A stretch of DNA of 64,000 bases from Saccharopolyspora endophytica (GTDB lineage Bacteria; Actinomycetota; Actinomycetes; Mycobacteriales; Pseudonocardiaceae): assembly GCF_018070075.1 (NCBI RefSeq), contig NZ_JAGPXE010000017.1, forward strand, positions 1 to 64,000, written 5' to 3'. The position numbers were made by a program, and so were the translations under genes. Below are positions 59,332-63,243 of the stretch, piece by piece. The stretch's first letter is position 1; each line of letters opens with the position of its first letter. Under the pieces are notes generated by a model. That model worked only from the letters and a program-made list of their open reading frames with translations, had not been told where the DNA came from and made no database searches.

Positions 59332-60741
59332 GTGACTGCGACCGATCCGAACCCCGCCGACACCGAAGCGCCGCAGTTGAGCCTGAGCACCGCCGCGGCC
59401 AGGAATCTCGCGACCACGACCAAGTCGGTCCCGCAGATGCAGGGCATCACCTCGCGGTGGCTGCTGCGCATGCTGCCGTGGGTGCAGGCCGCGGGTGGCG
59501 TGTACCGGGTGAACCGCAGGCTCAGCTACACCCTCGGGGACGGCCGGATCACCTTCAGCAACACCGGGGCCGACGTCCGCGTCATCCCCCAGGAGCTCCA
59601 GGAACTGCCACTGCTGCGCGGTTTCGACGACGAGGCGGCGCTGCGCGCGCTCGCCGACCGGTTCGTGCAGCGCCAGTTCGAACCGGGCGAGGTGATCGCC
59701 AACTCCGGTGCCCCGGCCGAGGAAGTGGTGCTCATCGCGCACGGCAAGGTCAACAAGATCGGCACCGGCGAGTACGGCGACCAGACCGTGCTGGAAGTGC
59801 TCGCCGACGGCCAGTACTTCGGCGCGCAGGTGCTGGCGGGCGATTCCGGCGAGTGGGACGCCAGCTACAAGGCGGTGACGCCCTGCACCGTGCTCTCGCT
59901 CGGCCGGCAGACCTTCCAGGAGCTCAACGGCTCCTCGGAATCGTTGCGCGAGCACGTCCGGGAGGTCCTCGCCGGGCCCGGTCGCCCGCACAACCCGCAC
60001 GGCGAGGCCGACATCGACATCGCATCGGGCCACTCCGGCGAACCTTCGCTGACCGGAACGTTCGTCGACTACGAGCTGGCACCGCGCGAGTACGAGCTCA
60101 GCGTGGCCCAGACCGTGCTGCGGGTGCACAGCCGGGTCGCCGACCTCTACAACCAGCCGATGAACCAGACCGAGCAGCAGCTCCGGCTGACCATCGAGGC
60201 GCTGCGCGAGCGCCAGGAGCAGGAGCTGGTCAACAACCGCGACTTCGGCCTGCTGCACAACGCCGACCTGCGGCAGCGCATCCCCACCCGGACCGGACCT
60301 CCGACGCCCGACGACCTGGACGAGCTGCTGACGCTGGTGTGGAAGGAACCCGGCTGCTTCCTGGCCCATCCGCGCACCATCGCCGCGTTCGGCCGGGAGT
60401 GCAGCAAGCGCGGCCTGTACCCGCAGAGCATCGACCTCGGCGGGCACCAGGTTCCCGCGTGGCGAGGCGTGCCGATCCTGCCGTGCGACAAGTTGCACGT
60501 CAGCGACAAGCGCACGAGCTCGGTGCTGCTGATGCGGCTCGGCGAGCAGAACCAGGGCGTGGTCGGTCTGCACCAGACGGGCCTGCCCGACGAGTACCGA
60601 CCCGGGTTGTCGGTGCGGTTCATGGGGATCAACGAGCAGGCGGTCATCTCCTACCTGGTCAGCGCCTACTACTCGGCGGCGGTGATGGTTCCGGACGCGC
60701 TCGGCGTGCTCGAGCACGTCGAAGTGGGCCGCGAGAGCTGA
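59332..60741 (+). CDS. Family 2B encapsulin shell protein A (cNMP-domain insertion)
   Basis: GTG 59332 is supported by the tandem paralogue, which starts with the same VTATxxPA-like opening; an ATG 7 codons upstream has no ribosome-binding site. 469 residues. N-terminal arm with [23 protein letters not shown] and [10 protein letters not shown]; a cyclic-nucleotide-binding-like insertion (about 95-200); then the HK97-type shell core from about 228, containing [52 protein letters not shown] and [35 protein letters not shown]. This order is the hallmark of family 2B encapsulins, which form icosahedral nanocompartments. It is not a CRP-type regulator: no DNA-binding domain is present. The canonical cNMP phosphate-binding cassette appears degenerate. 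Followed after 62 nt by a second shell gene and then by a polyprenyl synthase. Confidence 0.9.
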
Positions 60742-60745
60742 CCGC

Positions 60746-60772
60746 GCGGGCCGGTCACGCAGGCCGGCCCGC
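60746..60772 (+). promoter_or_regulatory. Intercistronic hairpin between the two shell genes
   Basis: Arms GCGGGCCGG (60746-60754) and CCGGCCCGC (60764-60772) pair perfectly around a 9-nt loop, just after the first shell stop. It could lower transcription into, or stabilise, one part of the message and so set the ratio of the two shell proteins. Confidence 0.45.
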
Positions 60773-60803
60773 TCCTCTCCCCGATCAGAGGAGTTGACAC
60801 ACC

Positions 60804-62183
60804 GTGACCGCCACCGAGAACCCGGCTCTGAGCCTGAGCACGCAGGCTGCGCGCAGGCTTTCCACGACCACCAAGACGCAGCCGCAGATGCAGGGCAGGA
60901 CCTCCCGCTGGTTGCTGAGGATGCTGCCGTGGGTCGACATCGAAGCGGGGACCTACCGGGTCAACCGGCGGCTGACCTGCGCGGCGGGCGACGGCCTGAT
61001 CACCTTCACCAACACCGGCGACCAGGTCCGCGTGATCCCCCGCGAACTCACCGAACTGCCGCTGCTGCGCGGCTACGACGACGACTCGGCGCTGAGCGCT
61101 CTGGCCGACCGGTTCGTGCAGCGCCACTACGAGCCGGGCCAGCTGATCTCGGTCGGCGGGGAACCGGCGACCGAGGTGGTGCTGATCGCGCACGGCAAGG
61201 TCGACAAGATCCGCAGCGGCGAGTACGGCGAGGACACCGTCACCGACACGCTGGCGGGCGGCAGGTTCTTCGGCTCCCAGGTGCTGGCGACCGCGCAGTC
61301 CACATGGGACAGCACCTACCGCGCGGTCACGCCCTGCATCGTGCTCGCCCTCGACCGCGCGGCGCTGCACGAGGTCACCAGGCAGTTCGACGAGCTGCGC
61401 GCGCACGTGGCCGCCGAGTACGCCTCGCCGGCACCGGCGACGAACAAGCGCGGGGAGATCGACATCGCGCTGGCCTCCGGTCATTCCGGCGAGACCGCGC
61501 TGCCCGGAACGTTCGTCGACTACGAGCTGGCACCGCGCGAGTACGAGCTCAGCATCGCGCAGACCGTGCTGCGAGTGCACAGCCGGGTCGCCGACCTCTA
61601 CAACCAGCCGATGAACCAGACCGAACAACAGCTCCGGCTCACCGTCGAGGCGCTGCGCGAGCGCCAGGAGCACGAACTGCTCAACAACCGCGACTTCGGC
61701 CTGCTGCACAACGCCGACCTGCAGCAGCGGCTGCACACCCGCACCGGGCCGCCGACCCCGGAAGACCTCGACGAACTGCTGTCCCGTCGCAGGAAGTCGC
61801 GGTTCTTCCTGGCACATCCGCGCACCATCGCCGCGTTCGGCCGGGAGTGCAGCAAGCGCGGCCTGTACCCGCAGACCACCGAGGTGCAGGGGCACGCGGT
61901 CCAGTCCTGGCGCGGCGTGCCGATCCTGCCCACCGACAAGATCCCTATCAGCGCCAAGGGCACCACCTCGATCCTGTGCATGCGCACCGGCGAGGACGAC
62001 CACGGCGTCGTCGGGCTGCGCCAGACGGGGGTCGCCGAGGAGCACGAACCCGGGCTCTCGGTGCGCTTCATGGGCATCAACGAACAGGCGGTCCTCTCCT
62101 ACCTGGTCAGCGCCTACTTCTCCGCCGCGGTGCTGGTCCCGGACGCGCTCGGCGTCCTGGAGAACGTCGAAATCACCCGCTGA
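60804..62183 (+). CDS. Family 2B encapsulin shell protein B (cNMP-domain insertion)
   Basis: GTG 60804 with AGAGGAG about 10 nt upstream; 459 residues. Co-linear with shell protein A and very similar along its length, with the same arm ([22 protein letters not shown]), inserted cNMP-like domain (about 85-190) and HK97 core ending [28 protein letters not shown]. The differences are spread over the whole length, most in the cNMP domain and the loop near [16 protein letters not shown]. Two shell proteins in tandem are known for some family 2B systems and may co-assemble into one mixed shell. The stop is 16 nt before the polyprenyl synthase. Confidence 0.9.
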
Positions 62184-62199
62184 GCGAAGGGAACCCGCA

Positions 62200-63243
62200 A
62201 TGACCACGATGCAGCAGGACGCGAACCGCGCCGGTCAGGCCTTCGAGGCGCTGACCAGCAGCCGAACCATGGTCGAGCCGGCGTTGCGAGCGGCGGTGGA
62301 CCGGCTCCCGGACCGGATGCGCCAGGTCGCCGGCTACCACCTGGGATGGCTCGACGAGCGCGGGAACCCGGTGCGCGCCGACCGGGGCAAGGCGATGCGG
62401 CCGACCATGGTGCTGCTCAGCGCCTCGGCCGTCGGTGGCGATCCGGCGGACGCGGTGCCGGCCGCGGTGGCCGTGGAACTGGTGCACAACTTCTCGTTGC
62501 TGCACGACGACGTGATGGACGGCGATGTCACGCGCCGACATCGGCCGACGGCGTGGACGGTGTTCGGCAACGCCACCGCGATCCTGGCCGGCGACGCGTT
62601 GCTGACGCTGGCGGCCGACGTGCTCGCCTCCTCCCAGCACCCGGAGGCGGCCAGCGCGGTGCGGATGCTCAGCAGCGCGGTTCTCGGCCTCATCGACGGG
62701 CAGAACTCGGACCTGGAGTTCGAGACGCGTGCCGACGTGGACGTCGCCGCGTGCCAGCGGATGGCCCGCGACAAGACCGGTGCTCTGCTGGGGGCCGCGT
62801 GCGCGCTCGGCGCGCTGCACGGCGGCGGCTCGCCGGAGCAGATCACCAGGTTGCGCAGCTTCGGGGAGCGGCTGGGGCTGGCGTTCCAGCACATCGACGA
62901 CCTGCTGGGGATCTGGGGCGATCCGGCGATGACCGGCAAACCCGTGTTCTCCGATCTGCGCACCCGCAAGAAGACGTTGCCGGTGGTCTCGGCGCTGACC
63001 TCGGGATCCAGCGCGGGCCAGCGGCTGGCGTCCCTCTACTACCGGGAGCAGCCGCTGGTCAGCGGCGAGCTCGCCCAGGCCGCGGAGCTCGTCACGCTCG
63101 CCGGCGGGCGGGCGTGGAGCCAGGCCCAGGCCGATGAACTGCTCGCCTCGGCGTTGACCGATCTCCGCAGAGCGGAGCCGGAGGAGGACGCGGCAGAGGC
63201 GCTCACGGCACTGGCCCACCTGGTGACGCGCCGGGACCACTGA
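62200..63243 (+). CDS. Polyprenyl diphosphate synthase, probable encapsulin cargo
   Basis: ATG 62200 has AAGGGA about 8 nt upstream; 347 residues. The first aspartate-rich motif is LLHDDVMDGD (Asp103, 104, 107) and the second is HIDDLLGIWGD (Asp233, 234, 241). GKAMRP near 65 and DKTGALLGAA near 191 are other family blocks. It condenses isopentenyl diphosphate onto an allylic diphosphate; a GGPP-like chain length is plausible but not readable with certainty. The N-terminal about 35 residues are polar and Ala/Ser-rich and precede the enzyme core; family 2B cargos are loaded by such disordered extensions. It ends in two tandem terminators, so no terpene cyclase is in the operon. Confidence 0.88.
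   Translation: MTTMQQDANRAGQAFEALTSSRTMVEPALRAAVDRLPDRMRQVAGYHLGWLDERGNPVRADRGKAMRPTMVLLSASAVGGDPADAVPAAVAVELVHNFSLLHDDVMDGDVTRRHRPTAWTVFGNATAILAGDALLTLAADVLASSQHPEAASAVRMLSSAVLGLIDGQNSDLEFETRADVDVAACQRMARDKTGALLGAACALGALHGGGSPEQITRLRSFGERLGLAFQHIDDLLGIWGDPAMTGKPVFSDLRTRKKTLPVVSALTSGSSAGQRLASLYYREQPLVSGELAQAAELVTLAGGRAWSQAQADELLASALTDLRRAEPEEDAAEALTALAHLVTRRDH

Follow-up and report, generated by a model that had tools for sequence, protein, structure and literature searches.

We analysed a 64,000-nucleotide (nt) stretch of Saccharopolyspora endophytica DNA, the window (G000:C9:1-64000 within a 7.17-Mb assembly, G000 being our handle for the organism's own genome), and found an operon in which two encapsulin shell genes, enc1 and enc2, are followed by a gene for a polyprenyl diphosphate synthase (PT), the sole enzyme of the operon. 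The family identity of the shells and of PT is near certain, and the operon itself, a typical member of a class already published, is of modest interest. What may be new is a terpene cyclase partner encoded apart from it. We propose that Enc1 and Enc2 would, by homology, co-assemble into a mixed HK97-fold shell, that PT, likewise by homology, would be loaded or docked there and would make a C15-C20 prenyl diphosphate, and that this product may be used by an unlinked germacradienol/geosmin synthase (G000:C23:647519-649669), which may enter the same shell via a GPTGLGT motif in its linker. The operon would thus represent the layout Enc1-(cyclase)-Enc2-PT-(ispH) with the cyclase and ispH slots empty. 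Judged from sequence, this mechanism as a whole, a terpenoid compartment that receives its cyclase in trans, is possible and falls somewhat short of probable. With slightly more reserve, we extend it to actinobacterial geosmin synthase at large, which may be a trans cargo that has repeatedly moved from the shell genes and is hardly ever retained in a genome that has no Family 2 shell; the "cyclase-free" shell-PT operons of the window and of Streptomyces would then complete an encapsulated geosmin pathway. The proposal makes a testable prediction: the enzyme behind geosmin and its earthy odour would act within, or rely on, a virus-derived shell whose genes lie at another site in the genome. Should this hold, the Streptomyces shell-PT locus, which is separate from geosmin synthase, would also gain a role.

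An operon of two predicted Family 2B shell proteins and a prenyl synthase

By sequence, Enc1 and Enc2 are predicted HK97-fold shell proteins of the SrpI type. Both exceed the 400-bit cut-off of the NCBIfam model NF041163 (encap_f2b), with 788 bits for Enc1 and 765 bits for Enc2. Pfam resolves each into PF19307 (SrpI-like) and, ahead of the SrpI-like part, an inserted PF00027 cyclic nucleotide monophosphate (cNMP)-like domain, at residues 114-198 of Enc1 and 107-193 of Enc2. Alignments to the cryo-EM shells 9bje, 9bix and 9bhu, the last from Streptomyces griseus, cover almost the whole of both proteins; Enc1 scores 692 bits against 9bje (residues 6-466 aligned) and Enc2 626 bits against 9bix (residues 3-457), structures deposited for Sl-Enc1 and Sl-Enc2 of Streptomyces lydicus. 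A preliminary description of this DNA had recognized a plus-strand tandem of two shells with inserted cNMP-like domains and a PT gene 16 nt downstream, had read it as a two-shell Family 2B encapsulin with the prenyl synthase as likely cargo, and had suggested a 2B profile search of both shells. The coordinates (Table 1), the profile scores and the Pfam matches (PF19307 and PF00027 in the shells, PF00348 in PT) bear this out at the family level.

Overall identity between Enc1 and Enc2 is 70.2%, with a lower value of 59.7% for the cNMP-like domain and a higher one of 76.3% for the C-terminal HK97 part. Published shell pairs from the same operon are ~60% identical, with ~60% and ~75% per domain in xylulose-kinase operons (PMC8346489). 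The diagnostic motif 1 reads LVWK in Enc1 and RRRK in Enc2, and TVWK versus RRRK in the S. lydicus counterparts. It was legible in 23 first and 38 second shells, none of them crossed, among 59 two-shell stretches that include three copies of the window; the remaining shells gave no motif 1 reading. The motif 2 regions also differ between Enc1 and Enc2, with a partial match to the S. lydicus letters. The window therefore resembles the S. lydicus pair (PDB 9BJE/9BIX) in having two Family 2B shells that align near full length, in the VWK versus RRRK split of motif 1 and in diverging most in the cNMP-like domain, and differs from that two-component system in having a prenyl synthase. An Ala and a Trp of Enc1 align with the canonical Glu and Arg of a solved kinase cyclic AMP domain, residues that we take to act in the cassette of that domain. 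Cyclic nucleotide binding is not expected of the window shells, and the insertion domain is described as binding no cyclic nucleotides (PMC12407261).

PT scored 491.9 bits against the NCBIfam cargo model NF041169 (f2_encap_cargo4; cut-off 450) and 291 bits against structure 3nf2. Its aspartate-rich motif DDVMD lies at residues 103-107 and a second one near D233/D234, and D103, D104, D107, D233 and D234 are invariant in an alignment of PT with 31 relatives. The criterion for PT cargo is an unannotated disordered N-terminal domain of 50-100 residues. About 15 residues of PT lie ahead of the NF041169 model, and most near relatives have a possible start at most ~20 residues from it (exceptions include L056, L068 and L076), their start choice being ambiguous. 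We considered whether PT lacks a tag of 50-100 residues; this reading is weakened, since the polyprenyl synthetase domain in Pfam starts at residue 60 and relatives are similar. The preliminary description had also expected generic annotation to miss the system, which annotation need not do because current NCBIfam models name both shells and the PT cargo. As a separate observation, a PT paralogue in the region G000:C23:25251-32094 scored 429 bits, below the cargo cut-off. A second terpene synthase lies ~5 kb away from this paralogue; we looked for the GPTGLGT pattern in that synthase and did not find it.

The nearest relatives of PT are from Saccharopolyspora, of which we sampled 22 genomes including that of the window. 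Because Enc1-Enc2-PT is intact and contiguous in 16 of the 22, with no cyclase between the shells, the operon is not a chance arrangement. PT was above its cut-off in 21 genomes and a 2B shell in 19. Among the others, G012 has a shell piece only, apparently at a contig end (from L039), and G008 and G015 have no shell beyond cNMP-domain matches. The arrangement varies in three further genomes: a cyclase lies between the shells in Saccharopolyspora rosea (G017), the operon is split over contigs in G004, and shell frames are broken in G020. The fragmented shell frames of L012 (Saccharopolyspora spinosa), with similar pieces in G020, are either assembly errors or decaying genes. Part of the genus carries a further row of a 2B shell, a PT-like gene and ispH (G007:C2:88809-94232, likewise G001, G009, G011 and G013), joined in G001, G007 and G013 by a weak cyclase-like match. 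This row suggests another terpenoid compartment cluster.

The preliminary description regarded a two-shell PT operon as less well described. This did not hold, as the PT type is one of five among 503 published two-component Family 2B operons (PMC12407261), and a polyprenyl diphosphate synthase gene is the commonest neighbour of Family 2b shell genes (PMC8049743). Like the published PT-type and terpene cyclase/PT-type two-component operons (PMC12407261, PMC8346489), the window has two shells with PT directly 3', in an actinobacterium. The sole difference is the probable cyclase partner that we propose elsewhere in the window genome.

Geosmin synthase as a possible cargo supplied in trans

A published layout of these operons places cyclase genes between Enc1 and Enc2 and PT after Enc2 (PMC12407261), and the row in S. 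rosea runs Enc1, geosmin-synthase-like cyclase, Enc2, PT. The cyclase that we consider in the window genome is a 726-residue two-domain terpene synthase, unlinked to the operon. Its N-terminal half scored 512.7 bits against germacradienol/geosmin synthase 5dw7, and the protein scored 1122 bits against f2_encap_cargo3, whose cut-off is 1200. Its inter-domain linker contains GGPTGLGT, and GPTGLGT has been proposed as a Family 2B targeting sequence (PMC8346489).

Geosmin synthase is present in 20 of the 22 Saccharopolyspora genomes, and the two that lack it are the two shell-less ones (G008 and G015). It lies between two shells in S. rosea alone; in the other 19 it is on a different contig or >100 kb away. 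A copy of the motif was found in 19 of the 20 synthases, in some only at the C-terminus. In a quick gene tree of 84 synthases (midpoint root; without G077 and G210, and with G012 covered in part), 18 unlinked Saccharopolyspora rows group with G270, beside a clade of 20 rows of which 19 are linked, and the tree requires 5 to 7 switches between linked and unlinked. Elsewhere, a geosmin-synthase-like two-domain cyclase adjoins a Family 2 shell at L180 (G040:C12:466000-470000); that shell has no cNMP domain in Pfam and scores 423 bits with the 2B model versus 297 with the 2A model.

We next turned to a class sample of 296 genomes, counting the synthase at E <= 1e-150 and a Family 2 shell at E <= 1e-50. 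The synthase was found in 67 genomes and the shell in 83, and a shell was present in 67/67 synthase genomes (Fisher p 1e-57, uncorrected for relatedness). In 66 of the 67 the match was of 2B type; 2A/2B labels were assigned here by 2B-model coverage of the match, and G120 and G312 have shell pieces only. The synthase lies at most 15 kb from a shell in 32 of the 67, and the other 35 have none that close on the contig; this "unlinked" label may be wrong near contig ends (G263, G142). After the strict GPTGLGT pattern had missed many linked synthases, we relaxed it to P-x-G-[LIVFMW]-G-[TSAVNQ], and this core was present in 32/32 linked synthases and in all nine unlinked ones outside family f20.

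A sample of 295 Streptomyces genomes pointed the same way. The synthase was missing in eight, the shell in six and both in five (p 1.9e-8), so that the synthase was absent from 5/6 shell-less versus 3/289 shell-bearing genomes. Among Streptomyces that carry hopene cyclase, used as a negative control, it was lacking in 2/3 shell-less versus 3/278 shell-bearing genomes (p 0.0008). In the Streptomyces genomes G060 and G039, a shell adjoins an NF041169 PT and geosmin synthase is unlinked. This pair is like the window in having a Family 2B shell, then an NF041169 PT, with the synthase elsewhere, and differs from it in having one shell gene beside PT where the window operon has two. Streptomyces coelicolor eshB (SCO5249) is likely of this shell-PT type, SCO5250 presumably being its PT neighbour.

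Encapsulins are consistently part of myxobacterial geosmin clusters (PMC12224551), and in cyanobacteria two cnb genes come after geoA (PMC7251104). In Streptomyces, geoA is bldM-dependent and a direct target of WhiH, as the promoter of eshA-mibA-mibB is of BldM (review PMC8549240). Our literature search, with most subscription papers beyond reach, found no proposal that geosmin synthase is loaded in trans into a shell of Family 2B.

Several results weigh against a cyclase supplied in trans. Regarding the motif, its C-terminal copy is missing in the window clade synthases (6/6), the strict pattern occurs in only 18/32 linked and 14/35 unlinked synthases of the class sample, and the relaxed core in only 12/26 unlinked f20 synthases. 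The co-occurrence is correlative and confounded by relatedness, and the synthase is absent from six genomes of the class sample that have a 2B-type match, as well as from the shell-bearing Streptomyces G409, G567 and G575; conversely, Streptomyces G412 (1420 contigs) has a synthase match and no shell match. One of the six shell-less Streptomyces, G365, is only 82% complete. The Streptomyces association also weighs less because the hopene-cyclase control was not fully negative, being lacking in 3/6 shell-less versus 11/289 shell-bearing genomes (p 0.0016), and whole-locus loss may be involved because none of the six shell-less genomes has a PT match at E <= 1e-132 either. As for PT, only its ~15 N-terminal residues precede the family model, and the context of its first aspartate-rich motif (FARM) is one that we take to be the type I geranylgeranyl diphosphate synthase pattern; geosmin synthase needs farnesyl diphosphate. 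Loci with a cyclase (10/17) and loci without one (48/63) share the same commonest FARM context, which gives no guide to chain length. Finally, 2-methylisoborneol (2-MIB) biosynthesis is stated not to require eshA (PMC6428758). The association between synthase and shell is genuine within the genomes sampled, but the number of independent losses behind it is small.

Alternative functions of the shell-PT operon

Instead of a trans-supplied cyclase, the shells could enclose PT alone, in a particle that produces, buffers or channels the prenyl diphosphates used in general metabolism, with geosmin synthase unrelated. We searched for related loci by a PT scan that confirmed 467 candidates, and took the best 80 of the 467, considering the fetched flanks only. 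Two shells without a detected cyclase were found in 44 of these loci and two shells with a cyclase in 12; four had one shell, four one shell and a cyclase, nine were truncated by the contig, and seven had no shell above threshold despite sufficient flank (among them L063, with weak shell pieces). In 34 of the 80, ispH (LytB) lies within ~730 nt 3' of PT (e.g., L007, L009, L012 and L018). IspH makes isopentenyl diphosphate and dimethylallyl diphosphate, the substrates of PT. The window clade (G000, G002, G003, G005, G010 and G016) has one ispH each, on a different contig and absent from the operon. The many cyclase-free loci, the adjoining ispH, PT as sole operon enzyme and the published PT type all fit a compartment for PT alone, which leaves unexplained why the synthase is absent from the two shell-less congeners and why an unlinked synthase keeps a cargo-type motif. 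We consider it somewhat unlikely, and less likely than a cyclase in trans. The preliminary description noted the lack of a cyclase in the operon; its suggestion that the particle may store or channel prenyl diphosphates is weakened by that synthase with its cargo-type motif and by the tie between synthase and shell.

PT could also be free in the cytosol and merely co-expressed with the shell, the true cargo being elsewhere. An NCS1-type permease gene and a HerA-like helicase gene lie 3' of the window operon. A shell-less PT persists next to this HerA gene in G008 (L182, G008:C1:4182000-4199000) and next to this NCS1 gene in S. rosea (L017), apparently natural losses of the shell pair with PT retained. 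The seven loci without a shell above threshold and the short N-terminal extension of PT are also consistent with a free enzyme, and no loading tag is known for PT. Against this, NCBIfam curates the PT family as encapsulin cargo, and a shell gene precedes PT in most of the 80 loci. Furthermore, a PT match at E <= 1e-132 was found in 226/295 Streptomyces genomes and in 0/6 of the shell-less ones. We regard a free PT as improbable. A chiefly developmental or regulatory role for the shell, as a particle of the EshA/EshB type to which terpenoid genes are secondary, is very unlikely: the cNMP-binding-type proteins encoded by eshB and eshA (SCO7699) do rise during S. coelicolor development (PMC3878966) and eshA is stated to be dispensable for 2-MIB synthesis as noted above, but a strong enrichment of terpenoid enzymes in Family 2B operons has been described, and the insertion domain is reported to bind no cyclic nucleotides (PMC12407261).

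Operon coordinates and hairpins

Table 1 Features of the shell-PT operon (window positions)
Feature	Coordinates	Strand	Details
Enc1, Family 2B encapsulin shell protein	59332..60741	+	469 aa, GTG start
Enc1-Enc2 spacer, GC hairpin	60742..60803	+	62 nt; 9-bp perfect core 60746-60754 / 60764-60772
Enc2, second Family 2B shell protein	60804..62183	+	459 aa, GTG start
PT, polyprenyl diphosphate synthase, predicted cargo	62200..63243	+	347 aa, ATG start
Hairpin after PT, possible terminator	63262..63305	+	14-bp perfect; z -5.05 for 63244-63320

The gap between Enc2 and PT is 16 nt and that between Enc1 and Enc2 62 nt. The preliminary description had terminators closing the unit. The perfect hairpin after PT agrees with this, and a hairpin lies at the same site in four close relatives, but a terminator scan that needs a T-run found no terminator after PT.

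The Enc1-Enc2 spacer is taken up by a second strong hairpin (fold of 60735-60806: -33.9 kcal/mol, z -2.6), absent from the preliminary description, which recurs at the same site in five close relatives (L003-L006 and L016) with too few changes for a covariation test. No strong hairpin was found in the Enc1-Enc2 gap of L010, L011, L013 or L014, and other strong hairpins occupy this gap in the distant loci L009, L015, L025, L029, L040 and L067. The Enc1-Enc2 hairpin could tune the Enc1:Enc2 ratio.

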